DNA from: Armatimonadota bacterium
Lineage (GTDB): Bacteria > Armatimonadota > Hebobacteria > GCA-020354555 > CP070648
Direction of reading: 5' to 3'
DNA length: 46,463 nt
Assembly (NCBI GenBank): GCA_020354555.1
Contig: CP070648.1
Location: forward strand, 4,775,113-4,821,575
Shown here: positions 2-30,413 of the stretch, piece after piece
Layout of the letters: every line of letters begins with the position of its first letter
Numbering within the stretch: position 1 is the first letter of the stretch
The notes under the pieces: generated by a model
Told to the model about the DNA's origin: nothing
Seen by the model: the letters and a program-made list of their open reading frames with translations, nothing else
The model's database searches: none
Made by a program: the position numbers and the translations under genes

Positions 2-1138
2 CACGGAACCGATAACGTGCTCGCCCTCGCCAATCTGGCGATGCTCACCGGCAATCTCGGCAAGCCCGGGGCCGGCGTCAACCCGCTGCGAGGGCAGAAT
101 AACGTCCAAGGCGCCTGCGACATGGGCGCGCTGCCGAACGTCTTCTCGGGCTACCAGCGCGTCAACGACGACGACGCGCGGCGCAAGTTCGAGCAGGCCT
201 GGGCGAAGCCGCTTCCGTCCGAGCTCGGCCTGACGGTCGTCGAAATGATGAACGCCGCCGATTCGGGGCGGATTCGCGGCATGTACATCATGGGCGAGAA
301 CCCGGTGTTGAGCGACCCGGATGTGTGCCATGTGCGCGAGGCGCTGGCGAAGCTAGACCTCCTAGTCGTGCAGGACATTTTCCTGTCCGAGACCTGCGAG
401 TTCGCTGATGTGGTGCTGCCCGGCGCCGCGTTCGCGGAGAAGGGCGGCACGTTCACGAATACGGAGCGGCGCGTGCAGGTCCTGCGCCGGGTGCTGCCAG
501 CGCCTGGCGACGCGCGGGAGGATTGGCGGATTCTGCTCGATGTGGCGAAGGCTGCGGGCGAGGATTTCGCGCTCGCGGACGAATCCGCCGTGTTCGACGA
601 GATGGCGGCGCTGACGCCGTCGTACGCCGGCATCAGCCACGCGCGACTCCGCGAGACGTCGCTGCACTGGCCCTGTCCTACCCCGGATCATCCGGGCACC
701 CCTATCCTTCACACCGAGCGCTTCACGCGCGGCAAAGGGCTGTTCCACGCCGTCAGCTACCGCCCGCCCGCCGAGGAGCCCGATGCCGAGTATCCGCTGA
801 TCCTCACGACGGGCCGTATCCTATACCATTTCCACACCGGCACGGTCTCGCGCCGTTCGGCGAGCCTCGACGCCCTGGTGCCGGAGGGCTACGTCGAGCT
901 GAGTCCAGACACGGCCGCGCAGTTAGGGGTTGCCGACAAGGACCGCGTGCGGGTGTCGTCGCGGCGCGGATCCATCGAGATCCGGGCCCGGCTCACCGAG
1001 CGGGTCGCCAACGATGTCGTCTTCATCCCGTTCCATTTCGCCGAGAGCGCGGCGAACGTGCTCACCAACGCGGCCCTCGACCCCCAGGCGAAGATACCGG
1101 AGTTCAAGGTCTGCGCCGTGCGCGTGGAGCGGGCGTAG
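2..1138 (+). CDS. fdhA: Formate dehydrogenase alpha subunit (molybdopterin oxidoreductase), 3' part only
   Basis: The reading frame is open from the left edge and ends at TAG 1136-1138, giving the last 378 or so residues of a molybdopterin-dependent oxidoreductase. The first visible residues (HGTDNVLALANLAMLTGN) and the following GKPGAGVNPLRGQNNVQG stretch are typical of formate dehydrogenase catalytic subunits. The last ~120 residues, from YPLILTTGR through the SRRGSIEIRARLT segment, are the beta-barrel that binds the molybdopterin dinucleotide. The family oxidises formate to CO2, or runs in reverse. The N-terminal Fe-S domain and the Cys/Sec active site lie outside the window, so the oxidation partner and selenium use cannot be judged. 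No partner subunit follows; the next gene is unrelated. Confidence 0.9.
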   Translation, partial: HGTDNVLALANLAMLTGNLGKPGAGVNPLRGQNNVQGACDMGALPNVFSGYQRVNDDDARRKFEQAWAKPLPSELGLTVVEMMNAADSGRIRGMYIMGENPVLSDPDVCHVREALAKLDLLVVQDIFLSETCEFADVVLPGAAFAEKGGTFTNTERRVQVLRRVLPAPGDAREDWRILLDVAKAAGEDFALADESAVFDEMAALTPSYAGISHARLRETSLHWPCPTPDHPGTPILHTERFTRGKGLFHAVSYRPPAEEPDAEYPLILTTGRILYHFHTGTVSRRSASLDALVPEGYVELSPDTAAQLGVADKDRVRVSSRRGSIEIRARLTERVANDVVFIPFHFAESAANVLTNAALDPQAKIPEFKVCAVRVERA

Positions 1139-1320
1139 GGCCTCGCCTTCTCTCCTGCCCAATCCCGACGAGTCGCCGTGCTGCGACACAGGGTCTCTTG
1201 CCAGCCCCGGCATCAGCACCGCCGCGGCCTGCCCGAAGTGACCGCCTGAGAGAGCGAAGGCGATGGTTTGGCTCACGGCGAATCCTCACCGCGTTCCACC
1301 CCAGGAGGAGTCAGCATGCC
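1139..1320. other. Intergenic spacer without a recognised element
   Basis: This gap between the formate dehydrogenase gene and the ceramidase-like gene contains only the AGGAGGAG ribosome binding site at 1303-1310. I found no convincing promoter, terminator or riboswitch in it. Confidence 0.5.
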
Positions 1321-2610
1321 ATGAGCACACAAGCTGCGTTTGCCGAAGTTGACATCACGCCGCCCCTCGGGACGAAGAAGATCGGGTGGCTGAAGGAAAT
1401 CGTCGGCGATTCGGTGCTCGACCCGCTGTTCGCCCGAGCCGCGGTGATCCAATCGGGCGCGGCCGGCATTGCCTTCATCCAGTTGGACACCCTCAGCATT
1501 CGGTGGACGACGACCAATGAGATTCGGCGGCGGATAGAGCAGCGATGCGGGTTCCCGGGCGCGAGTGTCATGGCCGCGGCGACGCACAACCACGCCGGCC
1601 CAGCCGTCGCGACGACGGGCGAGGTGCCTCGCGACGACGCGTATATCGAGATGATGGTGTCCAGGATCGTTGACATGTTCTGCGCGGCGCTCGATAATCT
1701 GCAGCCCGCCGAGATCGGCATCGCCAGCGCGTTCGAGTGGAACGTGGCGCACAATCGGCGCGTCGTGATGCGCGATGGCACCGTTCAGACGCACGGCCGG
1801 TTCCCCGACCCGAACGCACTCTACATCGAGGGGCCGATTGACCCCGAGGTGGCGGTGCTCGCCGCGCGCAGCTCCAACGGCGAGATGCTGGGCGCCATTG
1901 TCAACTTCGCGTGCCACCCCACCCACCACGGCCCCGAGCCGGGCTTCTCCGCCGGCTTCCCCGGCGTGCTGGCGCGGGAGATGAAGTCTCGCGGGTGCCC
2001 GGTCACGCTGTTCCTCAACGGGGCGAGCGGGAACATCCACACCGCCGATCCCACGCGGAACGGGGCCGACGTGGAAATGGAAGCCGCCGGTCTCGCATTG
2101 GCCGACGACGTATCGCAAGCAATGACCGACATGTCTTTCAGGGCCGCCGTCCGCGTTGGCTGCGCGGCGCGCACGGTCGAGCTTCCGTTTCGCAAGGCCA
2201 CGGAGGACGAGGTGCGCGGCACGATCCGGGGCGCGCAGCGGTTCGTGGATCCGACGATCTACGACCGTACGATGCCGCGGGTCCTCGAGAGGATACGCGA
2301 GTGCGGGGTGCAGCTTGCCGAGGTGCAGGCGCTGTTCGTGGACGACTACGCCTTCGTCAGCATGCCCGCGGAGTACTTCGTGCAGTTGGGTCTGCGCATC
2401 AAAGAAGAGTCACACCCGCGCCACGCGCTCGTCGTGAGCTGCGCGAATGGAATGGTCGGGTATGTTCCTCATCGCGAAGCGTTCCTGCGTGGAGGCTACG
2501 AGACGACGTTCACCAACAGCAGCAGGCTGGCGCCGGAGGCGGGCGACCTGCTGGCCGATTGCGCGATCGAGATCATCCGCGCCGGGTGCGACGGCGCGGT
2601 GGAGGTGTAG
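1321..2610 (+). CDS. Neutral/alkaline ceramidase-like hydrolase, stand-alone
   Basis: A 429-residue protein of the neutral/alkaline non-lysosomal ceramidase superfamily, whose known members hydrolyse N-acyl bonds of sphingolipids with a zinc-dependent active site. It opens with the family signature DITPP (residues 11-15). It has a THNHAGP motif at about residue 88, where the family has SHTHSGP, a NFACHPTHHG motif at residue 195, and an NGASGNIHTAD segment in place of the NGAQGDxSPN active-site loop. There is no signal peptide. The start is ATG 1321: AGGAGGAG lies 10 nt upstream, and the ATG at 1316 stops immediately. The family contains many bacterial members of unknown substrate, so ceramide should not be assumed. 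A related domain occurs in the fusion protein at 10241. Confidence 0.75.
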   Translation: MSTQAAFAEVDITPPLGTKKIGWLKEIVGDSVLDPLFARAAVIQSGAAGIAFIQLDTLSIRWTTTNEIRRRIEQRCGFPGASVMAAATHNHAGPAVATTGEVPRDDAYIEMMVSRIVDMFCAALDNLQPAEIGIASAFEWNVAHNRRVVMRDGTVQTHGRFPDPNALYIEGPIDPEVAVLAARSSNGEMLGAIVNFACHPTHHGPEPGFSAGFPGVLAREMKSRGCPVTLFLNGASGNIHTADPTRNGADVEMEAAGLALADDVSQAMTDMSFRAAVRVGCAARTVELPFRKATEDEVRGTIRGAQRFVDPTIYDRTMPRVLERIRECGVQLAEVQALFVDDYAFVSMPAEYFVQLGLRIKEESHPRHALVVSCANGMVGYVPHREAFLRGGYETTFTNSSRLAPEAGDLLADCAIEIIRAGCDGAVEV

Positions 2611-8409: not shown

Positions 8410-9336
8410 ATGCGCAAGAAGCTCTCTTTCTGGGCGGCGGTCAGCCGCGCCCCGTTCTTCACGGGTTCCGCGCTGCCGGTCGGGCTCGGCGCCGCCGCTG
8501 TATGGTACCAGAGCGGCGAGTTCCGCCTCGGCCTGTTCGTGCTGACGCTCGTCGGCGCGGTGCTCGTCCACGCCGGCGCCAACATCGCAAACGATTACTA
8601 CGACCACCTCTCCGGCGCCGACGACATCAACCCGGACTTCCACACGCCCCTGTTCGGCGGCAGCCGCTTGATCCAGGACGGGCTGATGACGCCGCGCGCG
8701 ACGCTGATGGCGGCACTTGCATGTCTCAGCATTGCCGCCGTTATCGGCATCGTTCTCACCTGGCTGCGAGGTTGGCCGATACTTGCGCTTGGGCTCGTCG
8801 GTGTCCTCTCGGGCTTCTTCTACACCGCGCCGCCGCTCAAGCTAAGCTATCGCGGGTGGGGTGAATTGGCGGTGGCGCTCGATTTCGGCGTGCTCATGGT
8901 CGCGGGGACGCAGTACGTGCAAGTCCGCGCTGTAACGGCCGTAGGGCTTGCGGCTTCGGTGCCCGTGGCGCTGCTGATACTGCTCGTACTCTACGTCAAC
9001 CAATTCCCCGATGCGCCCGCGGACGGACAGGCAGGCAAGCGGCACCTCGTGGTGAGATGGGGGACGCGGCGGGCGCGCCTTGGCGTGCCGGTCCTGTACG
9101 CCGCAACCTACGCCAGCATCTTGGCCGCGATCGCGGCCGGTCTGGCACCCGGCTGGTGCTTGGTGGCGCTGCTGACGGCGCCGCTGGGGGCGGGCGCGTC
9201 GGCCGTCGTATGGCAGTACCACTCTCAACCCAAGCGCCTGGTACCCGCCAGCGCCATGACCATCGCCGCGCATGCGCTGACGAGCGTGCTGCTCATCATC
9301 GGGTACGTCGCCGGCCGGGCGTCCGCCGGCGTGTGA
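8410..9336 (+). CDS. menA: UbiA-type prenyltransferase, probable 1,4-dihydroxy-2-naphthoate prenyltransferase
   Basis: A 308-residue polytopic membrane protein of the UbiA superfamily. The first Asp-rich motif is NDYYDHLSGAD at residues 61-71, and the second is DAPADGQAGKRHLVVR near residue 200, the spacing and wording seen in MenA-type enzymes. MenA joins a polyprenyl chain to dihydroxynaphthoate in the inner membrane during menaquinone synthesis, which would fit the formate dehydrogenase upstream. About eight hydrophobic segments are visible. The start has no strong ribosome binding site. No other menaquinone genes are near, so another UbiA-family acceptor cannot be excluded. Confidence 0.75.
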   Translation: MRKKLSFWAAVSRAPFFTGSALPVGLGAAAVWYQSGEFRLGLFVLTLVGAVLVHAGANIANDYYDHLSGADDINPDFHTPLFGGSRLIQDGLMTPRATLMAALACLSIAAVIGIVLTWLRGWPILALGLVGVLSGFFYTAPPLKLSYRGWGELAVALDFGVLMVAGTQYVQVRAVTAVGLAASVPVALLILLVLYVNQFPDAPADGQAGKRHLVVRWGTRRARLGVPVLYAATYASILAAIAAGLAPGWCLVALLTAPLGAGASAVVWQYHSQPKRLVPASAMTIAAHALTSVLLIIGYVAGRASAGV

Positions 9337-9374
9337 CCGCCGGCGCAGGGACACCTCACCCACAGGAGCGTTCA

Positions 9375-10124
9375 ATGAGCAAGCAGGATCTTCGTTCGCA
9401 GCCATTTCGCACCATGGTCGCGTTGGGCGAAAGCCACGTCGCGGGGGCATGCGCCACCGATGAGAGCCGCCGCTGGGTCAACGTCGTCGCGGAACTCATC
9501 AGCAGGTGTCAGGGCGAGCCGGTCACGCTGCACAACAAGGGAATCGGCGCGAACGCCATCTCCCCGCGCAGCCCCGGCTACGCGAGTTCCGCCAAGCCGA
9601 GCGCCCTCGAACGCTACACCGCTGACGTCATCGCGCTGCAACCGGACCTGTTCATCCTCGCGTACGGGCTCAACGACATGCGGGCCGGCATGCCCCCGGA
9701 GGACTTCCGCGAGGACATGGCGCAGATCATCCGCGACGTCAGAGATGCCTGCAGCCCGGTGACCGTGCTGACGACCGTTTACCACATGAGCGCCTACGAC
9801 TGGTATCCGCCGTATGACGTCGGGAGCGTGGCCGCGACGGAGGTCTTCAATCTCGTCATCCGTCAACTCGCCGAGGAACACGAATGCATCCTCGCCGATA
9901 TCTGGGACGCCGAGGGGCAGGCCGACTGGGCGATACACCCGGACACGGTTCACGCGAACGATCTGGGGCATCTGCTGATCGCGAACCGAGTGTTCGAGGC
10001 GATTGCCACGAATTGCAGCGGCGTCGCGGCGCGCGTCACCGCCGAGCTTGCCGAAGATCGCGCGGAAGTCCTGCGCACCATTGACCAGCGCCGCAGGCCG
10101 CAGGACTACGGCTCAAAGGACTGA
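9375..10124 (+). CDS. SGNH/GDSL-family hydrolase
   Basis: A 249-residue cytoplasmic-looking SGNH hydrolase. Block I reads GES (Ser20, the nucleophile) where most members have GDS. Block III has YGLND with the oxyanion Asn. Block V is DTVH (Asp190, His193) followed by ANDLGH. These enzymes cleave esters of lipids, acetylated sugars or small molecules. ATG 9375 is preceded by AGGAG with a seven-base gap. It begins 38 bases after the prenyltransferase gene and may share its transcript. No signal peptide is present, so an intracellular substrate is likely. Confidence 0.8.
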   Translation: MSKQDLRSQPFRTMVALGESHVAGACATDESRRWVNVVAELISRCQGEPVTLHNKGIGANAISPRSPGYASSAKPSALERYTADVIALQPDLFILAYGLNDMRAGMPPEDFREDMAQIIRDVRDACSPVTVLTTVYHMSAYDWYPPYDVGSVAATEVFNLVIRQLAEEHECILADIWDAEGQADWAIHPDTVHANDLGHLLIANRVFEAIATNCSGVAARVTAELAEDRAEVLRTIDQRRRPQDYGSKD

Positions 10125-10240: not shown

Positions 10241-12805
10241 ATGACCATGGGCAAGTTCATGCGGGTGCTGTTCTGGGTCGTGCTGCTGGTGCTGGTGCTG
10301 ACGGCAATCGCCGCCGGCGCGTTCTGGATCTGGTTCTTCTCGCCGCGGACCGAGACGACACTGGCTGCTCGGTACGGGCCGTTCCGCGAAGCGTGGCGGG
10401 CGGGCCGCCTCGAACAGGTCGCAGCCGGGCCGCTCACGGCGGGCGCGGCGTCGGTGGACATCACCCCGCCGATCGGCACGCCGTTGGGCGGATACGGTGC
10501 GCGCCGGGGCCGGCCGTCGACGGGCGTGCACGACGCAATCTATGCCAAAGCGCTCGTGCTCGACAACGGCAGCGAGCGGATCGGGATCGTCACGTGCGAC
10601 CTGATCGGGGTCAGCAAGGACGTCAAGCGCCAGGTGCTCAAGCGTGCCGCGCGGGCGACCGGCCTCGACGACGACCACCTCCTGATCTGCGCCAGCCATA
10701 CGCATTCGGGACCCGGCGCGCTCGCGCCCGAGTTCGTATGGCAGCTGGCGATGGGGCGGTACGATGCAGGCCTGCGCAGGCAAATCGTCAACAAGATCGC
10801 CGGTGCGCTCATCTCTGCGAACGGCAACCGCCGCCCCGCGCGCATCGGCTGGGCGGCAGGAACCGCGCCGGAGTTTGCCTCCAATCGCCGCGGCGAGGAC
10901 GCCGAGCGCGTCACCGACCCCCAACTCGTCGTGGTGCGCGTGGATGGTCAGGATGACAAGCCCATCGCGGCGCTCGTCAATTTCGCCGCACACGGGACGT
11001 GCCTCGACGACGACAACATGCTGGTCTCGGGCGACTGGCCCGGGTATCTCCAGCGCCGCCTGGAGGCCGAGATCGGCGACGGCGTGACCGCAATGTTCGC
11101 CAACGGCGCACAGGGCGACCAGTCGCCGCGCTCGCCGAACGGGCTGGACGGCTATCGCGGCGCCGAGGACGTCGGCTTCGGGCTCGCCGACCGCTGCATC
11201 GAGATGTGGACGAAGATTCGTACCCAGGACGAGGCCGAACTCGCCGTCGCCTCGTTCCCCGTCCGGCTGCCGGAGGGCCTCGGGTCGGTGTTGCTGACGC
11301 CTGCGACGCGGATTACGGCGATGAATCTCGCCGGGCTCGGCATCATGGCGGTGCCGGGAGAGATGTCGGCACCGCTCGGCATGAGGCTCAAGGAGCAGGC
11401 ACGACGACTGGGCTTCGCGGAGCCCTGCATATTCGGCCTGGCCAACGACCACATCGGTTACATCCTCACGGAAGACCAGTACCGACGCGGCGGGTACGAG
11501 CGCACGGTATCGGGCTACGGCCCCGGGCTGGGGCAGTTTATCGAGAAGGCTTTCGCCGGCGCCGTCATGGAGCTTGCGGTTCGCGCCAGCGACATCACGC
11601 CGGTCGTCGAAGACAAACTCGGCAGGCGCATCTGCGGGCCGGCGCGAGCATATCATAAGCACGGCCAGTGGATCCTGGAGTTGACCGGCAATCCGTATGA
11701 AATCGGCTACCGCCACGGCGCGCTAGTCAAGCCGGAGTTCAAGGAGACGCTGGCGGCCATGCGCAAGTCCGCGGGACGCGAGCTGCCGGTGCCCGGCGGC
11801 ATGCGCAGCCTGCTGTTTGCCGCAAGGCGGTCGGAGTACATGCTGGAGCGGCACCTGCCGCCGGAGTACGTACTCGAAATCCACGGCCTGGCGGACGGCC
11901 TCGGGCTCGACTACGACACGACGCTGTTCCTGCAGGTCATGCTCGCGATCGTCGAGCAGCCGACGATGAAGAAGATGCTCGGGGTGGGAGCGAGTTGCTC
12001 GAACATGGTGGCCATCGGCTCGGCGACGCGGCGCGCGGGAGATCTGATTCACGGGCGCAACCTCGACTGGGGCATGGGCGAAGTGCTGCCGCAAGTCGCG
12101 ACCGTGGCGTTCTACAAGCCGGCCGCCGGGCACGACTTCGTGGCAGTCAACTGGGCGGGCATGGTCGGCTGCCTGACTGCGATGAACGCGGCGGGCCTGT
12201 GCATCGGCGAGGAGAGCGTATCTTCGCCGCTCGACACGTCGGTTGACGGCAAGCCCTTGTTCCTGCTCATTCGCGAGGCGATTCAGTATTGCGATTCGCT
12301 CGACCAAGCGGTGGATTTCGTCGCCGAGACGCCCGGCACGTGCGGCTATCACGTGACGATTTGCGACGGGAACCTGCGCGACGCGCGCACCGTTGAAGTG
12401 ACCGCGCATCACCATGCCGTGCGCGTGCCGCGGGATGATGTGCTGTTCGGATGCGTCGGCGAGCGTCGGCCGGAGATGTTCGAGGGGGGCGCCCTGCCGC
12501 ATCCCGATATCGCGCGCGCTGATTCGAGCAGTGATTCGCGGTACGCGCGTCTGCGGGAGCTGGCGGCGGAGTATCACGGCCGGATTGACGTGCCGCGGAT
12601 GGCGGAGTTCCTGCGGGATGACATAGATCCACGCAGCGGCAAGCCGGGATCATCGGGGCATTCGGTGTGCAACTCGTCAACGCTGCACAGCGTGGTCATG
12701 CGGCCCGGGCGGCGGGATCTGTGGGTCGCGCAGGGGGAGATGCCGGCACCGACCGGCGAGTACGTCCACTACGAGCTGCGCCAGGTGCTGGCGCGGATGA
12801 AGTAG
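10241..12805 (+). CDS. Membrane-anchored fusion: ceramidase-like domain plus C45/Ntn-hydrolase acyltransferase-like domain
   Basis: An 854-residue protein with one N-terminal transmembrane anchor (residues ~8-32, VLFWVVLLVLVLTAIAAGAFW), so the rest probably faces the periplasm. Residues ~65-455 form a neutral/alkaline ceramidase-like domain with DITPPIG (from Asp73), SHTHSGP (152-158), NFAAHGT and NGAQGDQSP (from Asn288). Residues ~480-850 match the C45 peptidase / acyl-CoA:6-aminopenicillanate acyltransferase family. They have GASCSNMV with candidate nucleophile Cys586, HGRNLDW at 604-610 and the later GLCIGEESV region. Both folds cut amide bonds of N-acyl compounds, so one polypeptide appears to carry two unrelated amidohydrolase folds. 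In C45 enzymes the nucleophile is normally exposed by self-cleavage before the Cys. Whether that separates the halves here is open. Confidence 0.85.
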   Translation: MTMGKFMRVLFWVVLLVLVLTAIAAGAFWIWFFSPRTETTLAARYGPFREAWRAGRLEQVAAGPLTAGAASVDITPPIGTPLGGYGARRGRPSTGVHDAIYAKALVLDNGSERIGIVTCDLIGVSKDVKRQVLKRAARATGLDDDHLLICASHTHSGPGALAPEFVWQLAMGRYDAGLRRQIVNKIAGALISANGNRRPARIGWAAGTAPEFASNRRGEDAERVTDPQLVVVRVDGQDDKPIAALVNFAAHGTCLDDDNMLVSGDWPGYLQRRLEAEIGDGVTAMFANGAQGDQSPRSPNGLDGYRGAEDVGFGLADRCIEMWTKIRTQDEAELAVASFPVRLPEGLGSVLLTPATRITAMNLAGLGIMAVPGEMSAPLGMRLKEQARRLGFAEPCIFGLANDHIGYILTEDQYRRGGYERTVSGYGPGLGQFIEKAFAGAVMELAVRASDITPVVEDKLGRRICGPARAYHKHGQWILELTGNPYEIGYRHGALVKPEFKETLAAMRKSAGRELPVPGGMRSLLFAARRSEYMLERHLPPEYVLEIHGLADGLGLDYDTTLFLQVMLAIVEQPTMKKMLGVGASCSNMVAIGSATRRAGDLIHGRNLDWGMGEVLPQVATVAFYKPAAGHDFVAVNWAGMVGCLTAMNAAGLCIGEESVSSPLDTSVDGKPLFLLIREAIQYCDSLDQAVDFVAETPGTCGYHVTICDGNLRDARTVEVTAHHHAVRVPRDDVLFGCVGERRPEMFEGGALPHPDIARADSSSDSRYARLRELAAEYHGRIDVPRMAEFLRDDIDPRSGKPGSSGHSVCNSSTLHSVVMRPGRRDLWVAQGEMPAPTGEYVHYELRQVLARMK

Positions 12806-13321: not shown

Positions 13322-13879
13322 ATGCCAAAGATTCAACGCGACGCCGCGACTGAGCTGTACCCGGTGCCAGCAGCCGTCATCAGCTGCGCGGACGCGCAGG
13401 GAGACGCCAACCTCATCACCCTCGCGTGGGTCGGCGTGGTCTGCTCTGACCCGCCTATGCTCAGCATCGCCGTGCGCCCCGGGCGGTACTCGCACCCCAT
13501 GATTAAAGAGACTCGCGAGTTCGTCGTCAATCTGCCGCGCGCGAGCCAAGCGAAAGCGGTGGACGTGTGCGGCACGGTGTCCGGGCGCTCCGGGGACAAG
13601 TTCACGGCCGCCGGCGTGACCGCCGAGCCCGCCGCCTATGTCAAGGCTCCGTTGATCAAGGAGTTCCCCGTCAACATCGAGTGCCGCGTGCGGGAGGTCC
13701 TCAGCCTCGGGACGCACGACGTCTTCCTCGGCGAGATTCTGTGCGTCCACGCGGATGAGGAGGTGCTCGACGAGGGCGGTAACCTGGCGGCGGAGAAGCT
13801 CGACCCGCTGGCATTTGTCAACGGCGAATACTACGCCCTGGGCAAGCTGGTGGGGTCCCACGGCTTCTCGGCGAAGTAG
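13322..13879 (+). CDS. Flavin reductase family protein (FMN-binding split barrel)
   Basis: A 185-residue protein of the flavin reductase-like, FMN-binding split-barrel family. It shows the characteristic order PVPAAVISCADAQGDANLIT, then AWVGVVCSDPPMLSIAVRP, then the TREFVVNLP segment. Members reduce or bind FMN and often supply reduced flavin to monooxygenases or act as flavoredoxins. The length is normal for a stand-alone domain. ATG 13322 is preceded by GGAGGAG at about eight bases. It is divergent from the small membrane protein. No monooxygenase partner is nearby, so the electron acceptor is unknown. Confidence 0.85.
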   Translation: MPKIQRDAATELYPVPAAVISCADAQGDANLITLAWVGVVCSDPPMLSIAVRPGRYSHPMIKETREFVVNLPRASQAKAVDVCGTVSGRSGDKFTAAGVTAEPAAYVKAPLIKEFPVNIECRVREVLSLGTHDVFLGEILCVHADEEVLDEGGNLAAEKLDPLAFVNGEYYALGKLVGSHGFSAK

Positions 13880-13998: not shown

Positions 13999-14577
13999 AT
14001 GCCGGATGTGAGCCAAGCAAGCCCACTGTACGTTGGCGAGGCCGAGCTGATAGCAGCCTGCCAAAGCGGCGACGAGGCAGCCTGGAACGAGCTGTTTCGC
14101 CGCTACCGCAGGCTCGTGTTCACGCACGGCCTGCTGGTGGCCGGCGACGCAGAGGGAGCGGCAGACTTCGTCGCGGAGATCTTCGCCCGGTTGCTGGCGG
14201 CTCTCCCCCGTTTTCGCGGTGACGCCGCGTTCATCACCTACCTCCGCAGCATGCTCGCGCGTGAAGGCCGGCGCTGGCGGCGCCGCGAGCAGGCGTCTCA
14301 TTTGCTCGAAGACCCCGCCGACGAGTGCAGCGCCAATCCGGCGACCGAACTTGTGCGGGCGGAACGACTGGCCCGTGTTCGACGCGTCATCGCCTCACTC
14401 CCACCTAGACTGCGCGAGGTCATCGTGCTCCGGCATGTCCACGACCTCAGCTACCAGGAGATAGCTCGGGCCGTGCGCTGTCCCATCGGTACCGTGCGGT
14501 CGCGGCTGAGCAAGGCGCGGGAAATGCTGCGGGTGCGACTCGTCGCCATGGGCATCAGCGAAAGAGACGAACCATGA
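13999..14577 (+). CDS. ECF-type RNA polymerase sigma factor
   Basis: A 192-residue sigma-70 family protein of the extracytoplasmic-function class. Region 2 spans about residues 20-85 (NELFRRYRRLVFTHGLL, then the EIFARLLAALPRF segment). Region 4 covers about 120-185, with LPPRLREVIVLRHVHDLSYQEIA split by the usual turn and GTVRSRLSKAREMLR as the recognition helix. It redirects RNA polymerase to a small regulon. ATG 13999 has GGAG six bases upstream. The stop overlaps the anti-sigma start in an ATGA, so the pair is translationally coupled. Confidence 0.92.
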   Translation: MPDVSQASPLYVGEAELIAACQSGDEAAWNELFRRYRRLVFTHGLLVAGDAEGAADFVAEIFARLLAALPRFRGDAAFITYLRSMLAREGRRWRRREQASHLLEDPADECSANPATELVRAERLARVRRVIASLPPRLREVIVLRHVHDLSYQEIARAVRCPIGTVRSRLSKAREMLRVRLVAMGISERDEP

Positions 14578-15035
14578 AGACATTCAACTGCAGGCGCGCG
14601 CGCCCGTGCCTGTCGGCGTATCTGGATGGCGAGCTGACGCCGGAACGAGCGCGGACGCTGGAGGCCCATCTGCGGGCGTGCGCCGACTGCGCGGCGCATC
14701 TCGATGTGCTCGCGGCCCACGCTGCGCTCGTGGACGCGGCTGCCGACGGCGGTGCTGCTGTGCCTGACGGCCTGTGGGCCCGTGCGCGCGAACGAGCGGC
14801 GACGAGGCGCACCCGAGCGTCGGTAGGCTGGCGCGAAACCGCGGCAATTGCAGCTGCGACGATGGCCTTAATTCTGTTGATGTGGCTGGCGGAGCCGCGA
14901 GACCGGCGAGACATCACACCTGTGGTACGTCCGCCGGGCGCAGAGGAGATGGAAATACTTGACCTCGTGGCCAGGCTTGACCTCGACGAAGCTGCAGATG
15001 GTTCAGAACGGTTCGGATTCCGGAGGACGCCATGA
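14574..15035 (+). CDS. Anti-sigma factor with zinc-finger (zf-HC2) domain and one membrane helix
   Basis: A 153-residue protein. The N-terminal ~45 residues form the anti-sigma zinc finger, with the HLRACADC (HxxxCxxC) signature after the AYLDGELT motif. One transmembrane segment follows at about residues 90-110 (IAAATMALILLMWLA), leaving a short outer domain. It should bind and silence the ECF factor encoded immediately upstream and release it on an envelope signal. It overlaps the sigma gene by 4 bp and its own stop overlaps the next start by 4 bp (15032-15035), so all three genes are made together. Confidence 0.9.
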   Translation: MKTFNCRRARPCLSAYLDGELTPERARTLEAHLRACADCAAHLDVLAAHAALVDAAADGGAAVPDGLWARARERAATRRTRASVGWRETAAIAAATMALILLMWLAEPRDRRDITPVVRPPGAEEMEILDLVARLDLDEAADGSERFGFRRTP

Positions 15036-17785
15036 CCGAAGACGAGATGCCCGGCAGTGCGCGGGACGGCGACCCCGGCGTTCTCGGATATATCGCGAAG
15101 TGGGCCCTGATAAGCCTGGTGTTCGGCGTAGTGCTCGGCGCGCTCAAGGGCGCCGGGCTTCTCGCGAGTTCGTGGTCACTGCGCCTCGAAGCGCTGGCCT
15201 GGGTGCAGTGGCTCAAGGGGCAGCTCGGCCCCATCTCCGGCGGGCTGTGGCTCGTCGCCTTCCTCTACGGCGTGTGCATCGCGCGCCTGGCAGGCTACGC
15301 ATGGCGAGAAGCACTGTGGCGCGTGACGGCCGTCGCCTTCGCACTTCTCGCCTTTGCGGGGGTCGCGCTGCTGAGCGCGTCGTGCGCGCGCGAGCACGGC
15401 TTCATACCGCCGCCGGAGGTCGGACGCTTGTGGAGGTGGATGCCGGCGGTCGCAGCAACGGCGATCGCGTACGGGCTGCATGCTCGCTCGTGGAAGGGAG
15501 CAGCGCTGGCCCTGCTGGTGAGTGCCGGCGTACTGTGTGCCGTGTTCGGCGCGTGGATTATCGGGTGCGAGGGCCGCATCGCGTATTCCGTAGCCGCGGT
15601 AGGAGCGGTCGCTCTCGCCTGCGCGGCATACTGCTGGTCTGGACGCGATGGGATCATAGCGGGTGTGACCGGCGGCATCGTCGTCGGCGCGGCATGGGTA
15701 GCGGGGCTGCTGGCGGCCCAAATGTACTCCGGTCAATCCGAGTACAGCACGTACGCTATCCCGTTGTTTCACGGCGTCGGCCTCGTCTGCTTGGCGGGCG
15801 TGATCGCCGGCGTGGCGAGGCGGTCGGCGGCATCGGCGGCGCTGGCGACCGCGGGCACGGCGGTCGCCTGGGCGATGATCAACAGCCTCGGTCAGATATC
15901 CACCTGGCTTCGCAGCGCATCAGACGGCTTGCGGAGCTACGCCGCTTCAACATCACTCCCAGCGCCGCCGCTTCCGGGATACCTTGCACTGACGTTGCAG
16001 GGGCCGGCGAGAGGACACGCAGCATGGCATGATGCGTTCGGGGGAGCGGCGCTGGGCATTGCGGGAGGCCTTGCGTGGTGGGCGACTGCGCGAGAGCGTT
16101 CGGTTCGCAATCTGGCGGTTACCGTCGGCGCCGCAGCGGTTTGCGGTGCCCTGATCGCAGCTCTGCTCCGTTCGGCTGCGGACGTAAGTGCGTTCTACGT
16201 CTTCAGTCGCGGCGGCACGCCGGAGATTGGGGAAGCGATCGTGTTCGGCGGGCTTGCGGCGGGATGCGTGCTCATCACGAGTGTTGCGTTCGGGTTGCTC
16301 ATCCGGATCGCCCACAGTGGTGAAGCGGCGCCAGCCCGCCAGGTGCGGCGGGCTGCAGTCGCGGTGATCGGGCTCATTGCAGCGTGTCTCGCGACCAGCT
16401 ACAGTTACGTCAGTTGGGCCAACGGCCCGAATCACGACCGTTTGTTGGAGATTCTACGCGATCACCGTGAAGAGCGTCGGGCTTACGAGACGGGCGGCGA
16501 GCACCGTATCCAGTCGGGGCCTGCGCCGCTTGTTACTCTCGATTTCTCGCACGCCGGCGATTACCGGGTGCCGCATCGGCTGGACTATCCTCGGGGCGAC
16601 GTGCTGCTCTCCACGTTGAGCTGGTACCGGCGCGCGGGCTGCGGCGCCGCCGATAGGCCGCGTCTTCTCCACTATATCTACCGCGAGCAGACCAAGCAGT
16701 GGCGTCTCGCGCCGGCGCTGAAGACGGCGCAGGCTGCCTGGCGGGACTACGGGGTGAATGCGTCCTGGGCGCGAGCAGGGATGATCCGTATGCTGATGGC
16801 GCTCCGGCGTTGGGATGAGGCGGCGCGCGAGCTGGAGGGCATCATCGAGCAGGGATATGTGGCTGAGGTGCGGAGACGGGACAAGTTCGGACGTTTGATG
16901 ACACAAACAGTCACCCTGTACGAAATGGGCTACGGCGGCCCGGAGCAGATGCTGGCCACGTGCTACGAGATGATGGGGCAGTGGGAGCAGTGCTTGGCGA
17001 TGGCCGGCAAGGCGCTTGAGAAGGTCAAACATCCGCCGGCAGGCATGTACACTTACACGGGGAACGCCGCGGCGGCGCTTGAATCTCAGATAGGCCGCGC
17101 GCGGCGGGCGCGCCGCGACGGCGTTGGGAAATGGTCTGGCGTGGTCGTCGGAAGCTTGCGTGTCGGGTCCGCGCGGGTACGCGCCGAAGCCATCCTGTTG
17201 TCTCACGAGAACACGGGCTGGACGCGATGGCTCGAGCCATGGGCGCCGGCTGCATCTCTGGCGGGATTCGCTGGTACAAGCAAGGGCGTGTTCCGGTTCG
17301 ATGGCCTGCCGCCAGGCACGTACCATCTCGTCGTCCGGTTCGTCTATAGGCCGTACATGGAGGGGTGCGTAGTGCTCGACGGACCGAAAGAGATTAGGGT
17401 TGATGAGAACACCGTCCACCTCGATCCCATCGAATTCGTGCCTGCGCTGAGACACAAGTCGCCCGCCGCGGGCGCGACGATAAGAGCCACGAACCCTGTG
17501 CTGTCCTGGTATCCGCACCCCAGAGCGGCCTATTACACCGTGCACATCAGCGGCGGCTGCGAGAAGTGGGTGTGGGAGAGCGGATCCATCACCAACAGCT
17601 CCGTTCGCGTGGATGCCGAGGGCTTCGACCGGGGCGCAGGAGGTACGGAGAGGTGGCGGGGGGGCCTTATTCCTGGAGCATGGTACGGTTGGCTGGTCGT
17701 GGCACATGACGAGCGCGGCCGTGCGATATCGAACAGCCAGGACTACCGGCTCAGTGGGATCCCATGGTTCAAGGTCGCCAAGTGA
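15032..17785 (+). CDS. 917-residue polytopic membrane protein with TPR-like and beta-sandwich C-terminus
   Basis: The N-terminal half (about residues 20-465) contains roughly a dozen hydrophobic segments separated by short loops. It is followed by a soluble region. Residues ~530-690 are helical and TPR-like (APALKTAQAAWRDYG, RRWDEAARELEGIIEQG, WEQCLAMAGKALEKV). Residues ~700-800 resemble a carboxypeptidase-regulatory or prealbumin-like beta-sandwich (GVFRFDGLPPGTYHLVVRF). The last ~110 residues resemble an Fn3-like module (TNPVLSWYPHPRAAYYTVHI). Start ATG 15032 has GGAGG five bases upstream and overlaps the anti-sigma stop. Its fixed place as third gene of the sigma operon suggests a sensor or target tied to the sigma switch. 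I know no named family with this architecture. Confidence 0.75.
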   Translation: MTEDEMPGSARDGDPGVLGYIAKWALISLVFGVVLGALKGAGLLASSWSLRLEALAWVQWLKGQLGPISGGLWLVAFLYGVCIARLAGYAWREALWRVTAVAFALLAFAGVALLSASCAREHGFIPPPEVGRLWRWMPAVAATAIAYGLHARSWKGAALALLVSAGVLCAVFGAWIIGCEGRIAYSVAAVGAVALACAAYCWSGRDGIIAGVTGGIVVGAAWVAGLLAAQMYSGQSEYSTYAIPLFHGVGLVCLAGVIAGVARRSAASAALATAGTAVAWAMINSLGQISTWLRSASDGLRSYAASTSLPAPPLPGYLALTLQGPARGHAAWHDAFGGAALGIAGGLAWWATARERSVRNLAVTVGAAAVCGALIAALLRSAADVSAFYVFSRGGTPEIGEAIVFGGLAAGCVLITSVAFGLLIRIAHSGEAAPARQVRRAAVAVIGLIAACLATSYSYVSWANGPNHDRLLEILRDHREERRAYETGGEHRIQSGPAPLVTLDFSHAGDYRVPHRLDYPRGDVLLSTLSWYRRAGCGAADRPRLLHYIYREQTKQWRLAPALKTAQAAWRDYGVNASWARAGMIRMLMALRRWDEAARELEGIIEQGYVAEVRRRDKFGRLMTQTVTLYEMGYGGPEQMLATCYEMMGQWEQCLAMAGKALEKVKHPPAGMYTYTGNAAAALESQIGRARRARRDGVGKWSGVVVGSLRVGSARVRAEAILLSHENTGWTRWLEPWAPAASLAGFAGTSKGVFRFDGLPPGTYHLVVRFVYRPYMEGCVVLDGPKEIRVDENTVHLDPIEFVPALRHKSPAAGATIRATNPVLSWYPHPRAAYYTVHISGGCEKWVWESGSITNSSVRVDAEGFDRGAGGTERWRGGLIPGAWYGWLVVAHDERGRAISNSQDYRLSGIPWFKVAK

Positions 17786-22954: not shown

Positions 22955-23037
22955 CCCGGAGCGGCAGCGCCGCTCAATGCCCTGTGCGGAACCGAGGCGC
23001 AAGGAACGCCCCGATCGCAATGAATCGGAGCCCAAAG

Positions 23038-24474
23038 ATGAACCGCTGTCTCGATATTCTCACCGACGACCAGCTTGACCAGCTTGCCGATGCCGCGTTG
23101 ACCGTGCTCGAGCGTGCGGGCGTGATGTTCCAGTCCGACGCGATTCTGGATGCGCTCCAGTCCGCGGGGGCGGAGGTGGATAGACACGCGCAGCGGGCGC
23201 GTTTCCCGCGCCAGGTGATCGAAACCGTCGTCGCGCATCAGAAGCAGCGCGCGCCGACAACGGCGTTCTGGGAGCCCGCGTCGCCCGACGGCGCACTCCC
23301 CGGCATCGCGCTCCAGATCGCGCAGTTCTACTACGACCACGAGGGAGGCGAACGACGGCCGGGCAATCGCGATGACCTGGTGCGGATGGTGCAGTTCGGC
23401 GACGCGCTGGATGAGCGCGAGTCGGTGTCGCACGTCCTTATCATGCGCGAGCAACCGCCGCCGGTAGAGCCGCTGGAGGCGGCGCTGGTGCTGCTCGAAC
23501 ACACGGCGCGCCCGGGTCATGTGTACCCGCACTTCGCGTCTCAGTTTCCGTACCTCGAAGAAATCGGCGAGATCTGCGCTGGCGACTCCAACCGGTTCCT
23601 GACCGGCGGCGTCTTCATGGTATCGCCGCTGCGGATGGACCGCCGTTCTGCGGATTACATGGTGGACATGTCGCGCCGCAAACTGGCGCGCGGCGTCGGC
23701 ACGCAGCCGGTCAGCGGCGTCTCCGCGCCGGTCACACGAGCAGGCGTGATCGTCGTCGCCGCTGCGGACATACTCGCGGGCTGGGCGGCGGCGCTCGCGC
23801 TCGACCCGGACCTGCCGGTGTCGGGCGGCATCTGCTCGGGGTCGGTGGACATGGCGACGGGCAATGTCAGCTTCTGCTCGCCCGAGGCGATGGTGCAGGA
23901 CATCGGGTGCGTCGAGTTATTCCGCCGCCGCTTCGGCGGGCGCGTCGGTGTCGCCGGCGGCGCGGATTACACTAATGCGAAGTCCCCGGGCTACCAGGCG
24001 GGCTTCGAGAAGGCGTTCGAGGCGCTGACTATCGCGGCGCATACCGGCTCGCATCCGCACTTGGGCGCCGGCTTGCTCGATTCGGGCAAGACGTTTTCGC
24101 CGCTGCAACTGCTCATTGACCGCGAGCTGCAGAGCTGTCTGTGGCGATTCGCGGCCGGCGCGCCGGTGGACGAGGAGAGCATCGCACTCGACACGATTCT
24201 CGACATCGGCTCCGGCATCGAGTCGTCGTATCTGGAAGCGGAGCATACGCTGCGGCATTATCGCCAGAACCTGTGGTTTCCGGCGCTGTTGGATCGCGGC
24301 GTGTGGCGAAGCGAACGCGAGGAGGAACACCCGGATCGGCGGCTGCTCGAGCGCGCGCAGAAGCAGTTCGACGAAGTAATAGCGCGCTATCGCCCGCCCG
24401 ACGTGGATCGAGACATGCTGGCGAAGGTGAAGCAAGTCGTCGACCGCGCGCGACGCGAGCTGCTGGAGAGTTGA
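23038..24474 (+). CDS. MttB-family (trimethylamine methyltransferase-like) protein without pyrrolysine
   Basis: A 478-residue member of the MttB superfamily, which moves a methyl group from quaternary or tertiary amines to a corrinoid protein. The family N-terminus LTDDQLDQLADAALTVLERAGV is present in two halves. The region that holds pyrrolysine in methanogen MttB reads QAGFEKAF here, with Phe323 at the candidate position, so it belongs to the non-Pyl branch (glycine-betaine or carnitine-type enzymes). No in-frame TAG occurs. ATG 23038 is chosen because GGAG lies seven bases upstream; in-frame GTG 22984 and ATG 23020 are alternatives. No corrinoid protein or reactivase gene is adjacent, so the substrate and methyl acceptor are unknown. 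Confidence 0.82.
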   Translation: MNRCLDILTDDQLDQLADAALTVLERAGVMFQSDAILDALQSAGAEVDRHAQRARFPRQVIETVVAHQKQRAPTTAFWEPASPDGALPGIALQIAQFYYDHEGGERRPGNRDDLVRMVQFGDALDERESVSHVLIMREQPPPVEPLEAALVLLEHTARPGHVYPHFASQFPYLEEIGEICAGDSNRFLTGGVFMVSPLRMDRRSADYMVDMSRRKLARGVGTQPVSGVSAPVTRAGVIVVAAADILAGWAAALALDPDLPVSGGICSGSVDMATGNVSFCSPEAMVQDIGCVELFRRRFGGRVGVAGGADYTNAKSPGYQAGFEKAFEALTIAAHTGSHPHLGAGLLDSGKTFSPLQLLIDRELQSCLWRFAAGAPVDEESIALDTILDIGSGIESSYLEAEHTLRHYRQNLWFPALLDRGVWRSEREEEHPDRRLLERAQKQFDEVIARYRPPDVDRDMLAKVKQVVDRARRELLES

Positions 24475-24536
24475 GTCCGGGCGCGAAAGCGACGCGAGGC
24501 GAGAGGCGCTGTGGCGCGTCATGGGAGGGCAGGCCG

Positions 24537-24989
24537 ATGATTGTTGATGAGCTGAAGAACTGGCGGCGATACGCGCAGCTGGCCGAGCTGAGGCCGGCGT
24601 TCGAGTGGCTGGAGCAGCATGCGGGCGAGGACCTACCGGAGGGCCGCATCGAGATCGACGGCGCTCGTCTTTTTGCACTGCCGCAGAGCTACGCGCCCAA
24701 GCCGGTCGAGGGCAGTCTGTTCGAGGCCCACCGGCGGTATGCTGATGTGCAGTACATCGCCGCCGGCACGGAAATGATCGGCTACGCGCCGACCGAAACG
24801 CTGACGGTTGAGACGCCCCACGACGCGGGGAAAGACATCGCGTTCTACGCGCGGCCTAGCCGGTACACACCGGTCGCGTTGACTGCCGGCATGTTTGCCG
24901 TTTTCTACCCCGAAGATGCGCACATGCCGTGCTGCCGGCTCGATTCCGATGCGATCGTGCGCAAGCTAGTGATCAAGATCGCGCTGTAG
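24537..24989 (+). CDS. YhcH/YjgK/YiaL family protein
   Basis: A 150-residue protein of the YhcH/YjgK/YiaL (DUF386, EbgC-like) family. It has the signature FEAHRRYADVQYIAAGTE, then YTPVALTAGMFAVFYPEDAHMPC, where the EAHRRYxDVQ and FPxDxHMPC blocks line a metal-binding pocket. Family members are linked to sugar or sialic acid catabolism (YhcH) or associate with beta-galactosidase (EbgC). ATG 24537 has GGGAGG eight bases upstream. It is the last gene of the plus-strand cluster, 62 bases after the MttB-like gene, which suggests the cluster serves catabolism of a small sugar- or amine-like compound. Confidence 0.85.
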   Translation: MIVDELKNWRRYAQLAELRPAFEWLEQHAGEDLPEGRIEIDGARLFALPQSYAPKPVEGSLFEAHRRYADVQYIAAGTEMIGYAPTETLTVETPHDAGKDIAFYARPSRYTPVALTAGMFAVFYPEDAHMPCCRLDSDAIVRKLVIKIAL

Positions 24990-26850: not shown

Positions 26851-27053
26851 GATGGCCTCCATAGCGCGTTACTTCCGATAGTACAGATGCAATGCGGTCG
26901 CGATATGGCTTCACACGGACATGACAATTCGCCGTGCCGCAGGGATGCTACTGCCGCGACAGAGGCCTATTTCGGCACCGCCTAGGTTGCGGCAGGCATC
27001 ACCTCGGACAACGCCGAATCCCATGGCCAATCCCGCACGGAGGTCATGCCATC

Positions 27054-30000
27054 GTGACAAGATCCACGTCTCGCCCACAGCATCCGCGAGCCGCCGCGAT
27101 TCTCAAGGGCGCGTGCACAGCTTTGATGCTCGTGGCCGTGCTGCTCGCAGGGATGCCTCTTGCGGCTCGCGCCGCAGCGGATTCGCTCGCTGCCGGCTTC
27201 GAGCGCCCGCCCGATTCGGCCAAACCCCACACGTGGTGGCACTGGCTGAACGGCAACTCGAGCGAGGCGGGCATCACCGCCGACCTCGAAGCCATGCGGA
27301 GCGCGGGCATCGGCGGGGTGCAGATCTTCAACGTAGACTGCGGCATCCCCGACGGCCCGGTGCCCGTGATGAGCCAGGAATGGCGCGAGCATACGCGGCA
27401 CGCCATCGCTGAGGCCGCGCGACTCGGTCTCGAAGTCTGCGTCCATAACTGCGCGGGATGGTCGAGCAGCGGCGGGCCGTGGGTCAGCCCCGAACACGCC
27501 ATGCAAATGCTGACCTGGTCGGAGCAGACGGTAACCGGCCCCGCGCTCTTCGATGCCGTGCTCGAACAGCCCCCAACGCGCCGGGACTACTACCGCGACA
27601 TCGCCGTCTTCGCCATCCCGACGCCGAAGGACTCGGCCGCTGCCGCGTATCGCATTGCCGGCATCGGCCCGAAAGCATCATTCGCCAGGCCGCCCATGCG
27701 AGATCCCGAACTGACGCCCGGTGCCCCCGCCGGCATTCCGGCATCTGGTGTTGTTGACATTACGAGCCACATGGACACCTCGGGCAAGCTGACTTGGGAT
27801 GTGCCCGATGGCCAATGGACGGTCCTCCGCATGGGCCATACATGCACCGGAGCCCAGAACGCGCCGGCGCCGGCCTCGGGACGCGGGCTGGAGGTGGACA
27901 AGCTCAGCCGCGAGGCCATGGACGCCTTCTGGCCGGGCTTCATGGGCGCGGTCATCGCCGAGGCCGGACCGCTGACTGGCACGACGCTCAACAACGCGCT
28001 CATAGACAGCTACGAGACCGGCTACCAGAACTGGACGCCTCGGTTCCGCGAGGAGTTTGTGCGTCTCCGCGGCTACGACCCGATGCCTTACCTGCCTGCG
28101 ATTACAGGCCGGGTCGTCGAGAGCCTCGAGCAAAGCGAACGCTTCCTCTGGGACTTCCGCCGCACGGTGGCCGATCTGTGGGCGGCCAACTACTACGGCT
28201 ACTTCGCGGAATTGTGCCGCAAGCACGACATGCTGTTCTCGGTCGAGCCCTACGGCAACGGCGGATTCGACAACCTGCAGTGCGGCGGGCTGGCCGACGT
28301 GCCCATGGGCGAATTCTGGGTGCCCAACGCCGGCGCCGGCGAGACGCTGAAGATCGCGGCATCGGCAGCGCACACGAACGCGCGCAAGTTCGTGGGCGCA
28401 GAGTCGTTTACCGCCGACGAGCGCCGTGGGCGCTGGCTGGTCGAGCCTTACGGTATCAAAGCGCTGGGCGACTACGTTTTCACCCAGGGCATCAACCGCT
28501 ACATCTTCCACCGGTACGCTCACCAGCCGTGGATGGATCTCTACCCCGGCATGACGATGGGCCCATGGGGCACGCATCTTGAGCGGACGATCACGTGGTG
28601 GGACCAGGCGTCCGCGTGGTTCCGCTACATCGCCCGCTGCCAGTACCTACTCCAGTCGGGCAAGTTCGTGGCCGATGCCTGCTACTTCACCGGCGAGGCG
28701 GGTCCCAACAACCTGGACGGCCGTCCGTGGCTGAATCCGCAATTGCCAGCCGGCTACGACTACGACGGATGTGACGCGACAGTGGTGATGAACCGGATGG
28801 CGGTCAGGAATGGGCGCATCGTGCTTCCCGACGGCATGAGCTACGGCGTGCTCGTCCTCCCCGACAGCCGGTTCATGACGCCCGCGCTGGCACGCAAGAT
28901 ACGCGACCTCGTGCGGGCGGGGGCGACGGTCATCGGGCCGAAGCCGGAGCAGTCGCCGAGCCTTCAGGGCTACCCGCAGTGCGATGCCGAGGTGGCGGCC
29001 ATCGGCGAAGAGGTCTGGGGCAACTGCGACGGTCGAACCGTGAAGCAGCGCGCGTACGGCAAGGGCCGCGTGCTTTGGGGCGTGACAATGCGCGAGGTCT
29101 TCATGTTGCTGAAGACGCCGTGGGACTTTGACTATCGGGCGGCAGGCGGCGCGAAGCTCGCCTATATTCACCGGCGAATCGGCGATGCTGAGGTCTACTT
29201 CGTCTCGAATCAGCAATACCGGAACGTGGCGGTAGATTGCCGGTTCCGGGTGCACGGTAAGCTGCCGGAGCTATGGCACCCAGACACCGGTGCGATCGAG
29301 CTTGCGCCGCTGTGGCGCGCAACCGGGAGTCGCACGGTCGTCTCGCTTCGCATGGAGCCCGCTGCGTCGGTCTTCGTCGTCTTCCGCAAGCCCGCGAAGG
29401 GTGATCACCTGACTCACGTCGCGCGCTCCGGGCCCGCTGGTCCGAAGCCGCAGGCGGAGCGCATCGAGGTGACGCTCGCGCGCTACGAGGCCCAGGACGG
29501 AAGCCGCTGGGGCGACGTCACTGCGCGCGTCGCCGCAATGGTGGCCGCAGGCCAGACTGAGATACCGGCGACGAACGAGGTCTTCGGCGACCCCGTGCCA
29601 ATGGCGGTGAAGCGGCTGCGAGTCGAGTATCTGCTCAACGGGAAGCCGATGCAGGCAATGGCGGATGAGGGCAGCTCGGTGCTGCTGAGTTCGCAGGCGC
29701 GGCTGGCTGCGCAGTCCCAGTGGTTCCTACGCCTCAAGACATCGGGCACGGCGATCCTCACGCCGTGGCGCGCAGGGATCTACGAGCTTCGCACCGCATG
29801 GGGCGCGATGCAAACGATACCGGTAGGCGTCGGTGCTGACGAGTTGCAGGTGACCGGGCCGTGGACCGTCCGCTTCACACCCGGATGGGGCGCTCCGCCG
29901 GAGGCGACGTTCCCCGAACTTGCGTCGTGGACCGACAACGCGGAAGAGGGCATCCGGTACTACTCCGGCTCGGCGACCTACATCAAGGATATCACTGTTC

Positions 30001-30413
30001 CGGCGTCCGCTCTGGGACGAGGCCGCGACGTGGTACTCGATCTCGGATCGGTCAAGAACTTCGCCGAGGTCACCCTGAACGGGCGTTACCTCGGCGCACT
30101 CTGGAAAGCGCCGTTCCGCGTCAATGTCACCGGGATGCTAAAGGCTGGCGAGAATACGCTGGAGATCAAGGTCACCAACCTGTGGCCCAACCGCCTCATC
30201 GGTGATGAACAGTTGCCGCCGGAGGTCGAGTGGGAGGGTAACAGACTGAAGGCATGGCCGGACTGGCTCTGGTCCGGCAAGCCGCGCCCTAGGACGGAGC
30301 GCTATACGTTCACGACATGGCGCTTCTGGTGGAAGGACAGCGAACTCGTCGAGTCGGGACTGTTGGGGCCGGTGGTCATCCGTTCGGCGAAGACGGTGAC
30401 TGTGGAGTTGTGA
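27054..30413 (+). CDS. GH106-like secreted alpha-L-rhamnosidase
   Basis: A 1119-residue protein with a signal peptide (ALMLVAVLLAGMPLAARA). It begins with the GH106 hallmark TWWHWLNGNSSEAGITADLEAM, broken into strand and helix, then GIGGVQIFNVDCG. The GH106 catalytic barrel covers about residues 60-560 and includes SVEPYGNGGFDN and FVGAESFTADERRG. An amidotransferase-like region follows (YGVLVLPDSRFMTPALARKI). The last ~200 residues are galactose-binding, GH2-like beta-sandwiches (VKNFAEVTLNGRYLGALWKAPF). The expected reaction is removal of L-rhamnose from plant or bacterial glycans outside the cell. GTG 27054 is preceded by GGAGG with a ten-base gap. Confidence 0.87.
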   Translation: MTRSTSRPQHPRAAAILKGACTALMLVAVLLAGMPLAARAAADSLAAGFERPPDSAKPHTWWHWLNGNSSEAGITADLEAMRSAGIGGVQIFNVDCGIPDGPVPVMSQEWREHTRHAIAEAARLGLEVCVHNCAGWSSSGGPWVSPEHAMQMLTWSEQTVTGPALFDAVLEQPPTRRDYYRDIAVFAIPTPKDSAAAAYRIAGIGPKASFARPPMRDPELTPGAPAGIPASGVVDITSHMDTSGKLTWDVPDGQWTVLRMGHTCTGAQNAPAPASGRGLEVDKLSREAMDAFWPGFMGAVIAEAGPLTGTTLNNALIDSYETGYQNWTPRFREEFVRLRGYDPMPYLPAITGRVVESLEQSERFLWDFRRTVADLWAANYYGYFAELCRKHDMLFSVEPYGNGGFDNLQCGGLADVPMGEFWVPNAGAGETLKIAASAAHTNARKFVGAESFTADERRGRWLVEPYGIKALGDYVFTQGINRYIFHRYAHQPWMDLYPGMTMGPWGTHLERTITWWDQASAWFRYIARCQYLLQSGKFVADACYFTGEAGPNNLDGRPWLNPQLPAGYDYDGCDATVVMNRMAVRNGRIVLPDGMSYGVLVLPDSRFMTPALARKIRDLVRAGATVIGPKPEQSPSLQGYPQCDAEVAAIGEEVWGNCDGRTVKQRAYGKGRVLWGVTMREVFMLLKTPWDFDYRAAGGAKLAYIHRRIGDAEVYFVSNQQYRNVAVDCRFRVHGKLPELWHPDTGAIELAPLWRATGSRTVVSLRMEPAASVFVVFRKPAKGDHLTHVARSGPAGPKPQAERIEVTLARYEAQDGSRWGDVTARVAAMVAAGQTEIPATNEVFGDPVPMAVKRLRVEYLLNGKPMQAMADEGSSVLLSSQARLAAQSQWFLRLKTSGTAILTPWRAGIYELRTAWGAMQTIPVGVGADELQVTGPWTVRFTPGWGAPPEATFPELASWTDNAEEGIRYYSGSATYIKDITVPASALGRGRDVVLDLGSVKNFAEVTLNGRYLGALWKAPFRVNVTGMLKAGENTLEIKVTNLWPNRLIGDEQLPPEVEWEGNRLKAWPDWLWSGKPRPRTERYTFTTWRFWWKDSELVESGLLGPVVIRSAKTVTVEL

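Follow-up and report, generated by a model that had tools for sequence, protein, structure and literature searches.

A single gene in the window analysed here (the whole stretch of Armatimonadota DNA, 46,463 nucleotides) encodes, in one chain, a membrane anchor followed by a zinc domain of the neutral-ceramidase type and a C45 domain of the Ntn-hydrolase class. The same two domains are joined in at least three phyla of bacteria, which makes the fusion a real protein family and not a local accident. With moderate confidence, we propose an amidohydrolase with two active sites that works outside the cytoplasm on N-acylated lipids, whose fatty acids would be passed on to beta-oxidation. Each half belongs to a known family. 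The fused family is apparently undescribed, and no description of it, of its spread, of its operon or of the joint loss of its two sites was found in the open-licence literature searched.

The gene is read in a single unbroken frame from an ATG at 10241 to a stop codon at 12803-12805. These boundaries agree with those of the first-pass annotation of this DNA, and all the features named there, namely the transmembrane anchor and the motifs DITPPIG, SHTHSGP, NGAQGD, GASC586SNMV and GRNLDW, are found in the translation (Table 1). Domain searches of both halves, as that annotation had recommended, return matches far beyond chance: Ceramidase_alk (PF04734) at residues 67-297, with 111.6 bits against a curated Pfam cut-off of 32.1; AAT at residues 602-830 (Pfam, E 5.5e-12); and C45_proenzyme (NF040521) at residues 482-825, which passes its curated NCBIfam cut-off with an E value of 7.8e-52. 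Residues 9-27 form the sole strongly hydrophobic stretch of the protein (mean Kyte-Doolittle hydropathy 2.76), and the anchor is expected to adopt an N-in/C-out orientation. Around the junction (codons 406-540), GC3 takes values of 0.82, 0.78 and 0.93, and the codon-position GC is continuous, hence no sign of a frameshift or an assembly join. The linker between the two domains, whose length varies from about 25 to 45 residues among the fusions, is modelled with a pLDDT of 39-57, with low confidence at about residues 451-460.

Table 1 Features of the fusion gene and its upstream neighbour, in window coordinates
Feature	Position	Strand	Basis
GDSL/SGNH hydrolase (lipase/esterase), upstream neighbour, 116 bp before the fusion	9057..10124	+	PF13472 E 5.4e-22
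Fusion gene, 854 aa: anchor, neutral-ceramidase-type domain, C45 domain	10241..12805	+	ORF, domain searches
N-terminal membrane anchor, residues 3-33 (modelled as a single long helix), with its hydrophobic core at 9-27	10247..10339	+	Hydropathy, model
Neutral-ceramidase-type zinc amidase domain (predicted), residues 61-447	10421..11581	+	PF04734 E 5.1e-32; Foldseek 2zws E 1.8e-30
SHTHSGP, residues 152-158: H153 at presumed zinc-ligand position, H155 at human His196 position	10694..10714	+	Alignment to 2zws/4wgk; conserved in fusions
NGAQGDQS, residues 288-295; S295 at human Ser354 position	11102..11125	+	Alignment to 2zws/4wgk
PGE, residues 372-374: E374 at the presumed zinc-ligand position Glu540 of human neutral ceramidase	11354..11362	+	Alignment, fusion conservation
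Linker between the domains, residues 448-476, modelled with low confidence, without leftover signal peptide	11582..11668	+	Fusion alignment, model
C45 domain (Ntn hydrolase, IAT/NAAA-like), residues 477-854	11669..12802	+	NF040521 176.6 bits against 85; Foldseek 2x1c E 9.5e-19
Cys586, predicted N-terminal nucleophile	11996..11998	+	Kept in 27/27 stand-alone C45 domains and 39/41 fusions
GRNLDW, residues 605-610: R606 and D609 at presumed NAAA Arg142 and Asp145 positions	12053..12070	+	Alignment to 6dxy_B

The family status of the fusion rests on its recurrence. A contig scan with the single window sequence gave no match, its patterns being too specific; a chimeric alignment of both halves, used as the query of genome contigs, recovered the Hydrogenedentota fusions. 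The 68 Hydrogenedentota genomes include at least 51 with a single-frame fusion, defined by a match spanning both halves (a lower bound among the matches listed), and both domains share one frame at seven loci among the 392 Planctomycetota genomes sampled. Outside Armatimonadota, the architecture is shared by at least 58 independent genomes from two phyla, and the window's copy is the sole fusion among 291 Armatimonadota genomes. The survey of genomes suggested at the outset thus finds the fusion in Hydrogenedentota and Planctomycetota, and the concern that the halves might always occur separately, with a frameshift joining them here, is answered by homologues of the same length that are themselves fused in a single frame. 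Score-limited searches of samples of 241 Bdellovibrionota and 338 Verrucomicrobiota genomes returned no single-frame fusion; in two Bdellovibrionota genomes, the halves are adjacent overlapping genes in opposite orders (C45 then ceramidase in L146, ceramidase then C45 in L299). No plasmid record covering the fusion was found.

The protein has 35 matches in the window's own genome (4.88 Mb, one contig), of which about 20 are of N type and about 14 of C45 type, only one of them being fused; both families are expanded there. The loci L038 (4557-8456, +) and L039 of this genome comprise a 1300-aa frame in which a PKD domain accompanies two C45 domains in tandem, as well as a run of three C45 genes. 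A second, divergent ceramidase-like gene is located in the window itself at 409-2610 (+), after the end of a formate-dehydrogenase-like gene; its domain, at about 1330-2187, scores 31.7 bits, just below the Pfam cut-off.

In a tree of C45 domains, the 26 fused ones (one from the window, seven from Planctomycetota and 18 from Hydrogenedentota) are split from 29 stand-alone domains by a supported branch (96/91), the nearest to the window's domain being those of the Planctomycetota loci L250 and L254. In the N-domain tree, the position of the window's copy is ambiguous, since it may group with the fusions as well as with the Armatimonadota stand-alone domains; the case for a single origin is therefore carried mostly by the C45 half. 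Two independent fusions were considered, a quick C45 tree having paired the window's domain with a paralogue from its own genome; one origin fitted too (p 0.456), and the fused domains fell on a single supported branch once Planctomycetota were added. The simplest reading of these trees would be that the fusion arose once, long ago, and was later transferred or lost, with a possible exchange of the N domain in the window's lineage.

The N-terminal half shares with neutral ceramidase (PaCD, 2zws; human ASAH2, 4wgk; PF04734) its fold and its zinc and catalytic positions, H153, H155, R216, H251, E374, Y407 and Y419, among which we take H153, H251, E374 and Y407 to be the zinc ligands by reference to published neutral-ceramidase structures. 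On the strength of these positions, the N half is predicted to bind zinc. In a phmmer alignment to human neutral ceramidase, where the chain numbering is offset by 98 and both Glu540 and Tyr579 fit, the positions of His196, Arg257, Tyr579 and Tyr591, which are critical residues of the human enzyme (PMC6952831), are occupied by H155, R216 (assigned via the Pseudomonas enzyme), Y407 and Y419. The position of Ser354, the residue that holds Arg257 in the human enzyme (PMC6952831), corresponds to Ser274 of PaCD and is a serine in the window's protein (S295), with T, R, K, E or A in most fusions; given this variability, the substrate need not be ceramide. The fusion, like neutral ceramidase, is secreted or N-terminally anchored, but it differs in its N half of about 390 residues, which is devoid of the classical C-terminal immunoglobulin-like part, in this non-conserved serine position, in the second amidase attached to it, and in its score against the neutral-ceramidase equivalog NF041649 (NCBIfam), which reaches 69.1 bits against a cut-off of 1200, with positions 19-255 of the 636 in the profile matched.

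An AlphaFold2 model built on an alignment of 33 fusions (pLDDT 81.7, pTM 0.72) was compared with known structures by Foldseek. The N half matches neutral ceramidase 2zws, and the C half best matches isopenicillin-N acyltransferase 2x1c (target TM 0.74-0.78), followed by the MEROPS C89 enzymes NAAA (6dxw, E 4e-14) and acid ceramidase (5u81, E 9e-13), so that the model supports an Ntn-hydrolase fold for this half. These fold matches, together with the conserved residues of both chemistries, bear out the initial view that the halves have unrelated folds and both act on N-acyl amide bonds. With the C45 autoproteolytic acyltransferases/hydrolases (NF040521; 2x1c), the C half has in common the Cys586 position, the GRNLDW motif and a score above the family cut-off, and it contains the C45 motif set, with C586 at the start of the beta part, R606, N607 and D609. 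It departs from that family in being placed at the C terminus of a zinc amidase, outside the cytoplasm, with no sign of acyl-CoA use. In a phmmer alignment to 6dxy_B, C586 coincides with Cys126 of NAAA, and R606 and D609 with residues that we take to be Arg142 and Asp145. The likeness to NAAA and acid ceramidase, which are eukaryotic, lysosomal and unfused, is at the level of the fold, the best sequence match (E 0.011, to 6dxy_B) falling short of a family-level match. From the position of this cysteine, the chain is predicted to undergo autocleavage between residues 585 and 586.

The residues of both sites are kept together. In the first 31 distinct fusions, H153, H155, R216, H251, E374, Y407, C586, R606 and D609 are invariant, and Y419 is present in at least 30. 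When the Planctomycetota are added, C586 is kept in 39 of 41 fusions, and the same 39 keep the zinc ligands where sequenced (L250, whose N terminus is cut short, being counted without H153 and H155); R606 is replaced by H or S in several Planctomycetota fusions. With its retention in every stand-alone C45 domain aligned, this speaks against the suspicion that Cys586 might be lost in close relatives. Both fusions without the C45 cysteine are also without several zinc-site residues: L237 shows the changes H155M, R216A, H251R, E374A, Y407F, Y419P and C586G, and L238 shows H153G, H155R, H251R, Y407T and C586G. Such a joint loss is expected if the two sites serve one function; the two copies may, however, go back to no more than one or two events. 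Both (L237:5281-7692:- and L238:5577-8510:-) are possible pseudo-enzymes, and L237 keeps an intact partner gene.

The first-pass annotation had proposed a two-step or dual-specificity amidase tethered in the periplasm. The anchor, both folds and both sets of residues are indeed present; the tether, however, appears to be a feature of the window's copy, the fusions read from Hydrogenedentota and Planctomycetota having N termini that resemble ordinary cleavable signal peptides.

In Hydrogenedentota, a gene for a protein of about 530 residues, with one N-terminal transmembrane helix and no Pfam match, is found directly downstream of the fusion, usually overlapping it, at 27 of 28 loci (for example L097:6030-7598:+), the remaining locus being at a contig edge. 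Below an E value of 0.001, the only PDB matches of its model (pLDDT 88.9) are to TP0453 (E 3.7e-4, target TM 0.43), an outer-membrane-associated lipoprotein, which gives a weak hint that the partner may bind lipids or membranes. An enoyl-CoA hydratase gene is located directly upstream of the fusion at 10 of the 28 loci. In the window's genome, no homologue of the partner is found (best E 0.05), and the enoyl-CoA hydratase is not adjacent to the fusion gene. The GDSL hydrolase encoded just before the window's fusion is a possible operon partner; a Planctomycetota triple fusion (L269:3102-7046:-) carries an alpha/beta-hydrolase domain (about 1148-1293) in addition to the ceramidase-type and C45 domains, and acyl-ester hydrolases are thus found repeatedly in the company of the fusion.

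Extracytoplasmic acyl chemistry links two amidases, nearby ester hydrolases, a fatty-acid oxidation enzyme and a possible lipid-binding protein; on this ground we favour a two-site amidohydrolase acting on N-acylated lipids. In the mechanism that we propose, the N half, whose metal-site residues are complete, would hydrolyse amides with the help of zinc, in the manner of neutral ceramidase. The C half would cut its own chain before Cys586, and this cysteine would then serve in the cleavage of N-acyl amides. A single pool of N-acylated lipids, located in the periplasm or on the outer side of the inner membrane, is probably the target of both halves; the two sites may remove two acyl groups of one lipid or process successive products, and the released fatty acids would enter beta-oxidation. 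That the substrate is a lipid, that the two sites cooperate and that the products are used in this way are inferences. Candidate substrates would be aminolipids such as ornithine lipids, as well as sphingolipid-like and N-acyl phospholipids; ornithine lipids contain amide- and ester-linked chains and occur in planctomycetes (PMC12493201). More tentatively, and with clearly less confidence than in the mechanism itself, the family could be seen as trans-phylum dual-fold lipid amidases, in which unrelated machines act in sequence on one two-acyl bacterial lipid, Hydrogenedentota adding a dedicated membrane-anchored lipid-handling partner.

The breadth of substrates known for C45 relatives, and the many different substrates suggested by the numerous stand-alone N-domain and C45 matches in the window's genome, would also fit an amidase whose N-acyl substrates are not lipids (N-acyl amino acids, peptides, signalling molecules or scavenged natural products), with separate specificities of the two halves joined only for co-secretion. 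We consider this unlikely, given that the joint site loss, the adjacency of the split genes and the company of an enoyl-CoA hydratase and esterases favour one acyl-lipid pathway. Somewhat harder to sustain is an acyl-transfer (remodelling) enzyme, in which the zinc half would remove an N-acyl chain and the C45 half would move the acyl group onto another amine, as isopenicillin-N acyltransferase does. That enzyme is the best fold match of the C half, and lipid acyl-transfer chemistry fits a further Planctomycetota architecture (L259-L264, six genomes; about 850-870 aa, for example L259:2072-4687:-) composed of a PlsC/LPLAT-type acyltransferase (PF01553), a transmembrane segment and a C45 domain (PF03417), as seen by Pfam in the two proteins searched (L259 and L263). 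These proteins also place a C45 domain behind a lipid-acyl enzyme in a single chain, but with a PlsC-type acyltransferase instead of a ceramidase-type amidase. However, isopenicillin-N acyltransferase uses cytosolic acyl-CoA, which is unexpected outside the inner membrane, and having an enoyl-CoA hydratase as neighbour suggests that fatty acids are broken down. That the halves act independently, the fusion being meaningless beyond shared expression, is very improbable: the linker is variable and both domains can occur alone, but the fusion is conserved over three phyla with one supported C45 branch, is kept in most Hydrogenedentota, and its sites are lost together. That two genes were joined artificially, by annotation or assembly, a view for which the single copy in the window's phylum might speak, is ruled out by the continuous coding signal in a one-contig genome and by the homologues of the same architecture in two other phyla.

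The two-site amidohydrolase that we favour brings together relatives of enzymes of medical interest, neutral ceramidase on one side and acid ceramidase and NAAA on the other, in which the same chemistry evolved on unrelated folds. As a natural fusion kept by selection, it ties two chemistries together genetically and leads us to predict a common substrate, which, if found, would inform on the breakdown or remodelling of N-acylated lipids in little-studied diderm phyla and give a function to an operon with an orphan partner. The fusion also aids the annotation of the many stand-alone ceramidase-like and C45 genes in these genomes.

Other genes of the window are worth recording. Downstream of the fusion, a flavin reductase is encoded at 13322-13879, and just beyond it, at 13999-17785 (+), are overlapping genes for an ECF sigma factor, a zinc-finger anti-sigma factor and a 917-aa protein with weak TPR and CarboxypepD_reg matches. 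Further along, at 22984-24989 (+), an MTTB-family trimethylamine methyltransferase gene adjoins a DUF386 (YhcH/YjgK/YiaL) gene, and an alpha-L-rhamnosidase (GH106) is encoded close to this pair at 26934-30413.
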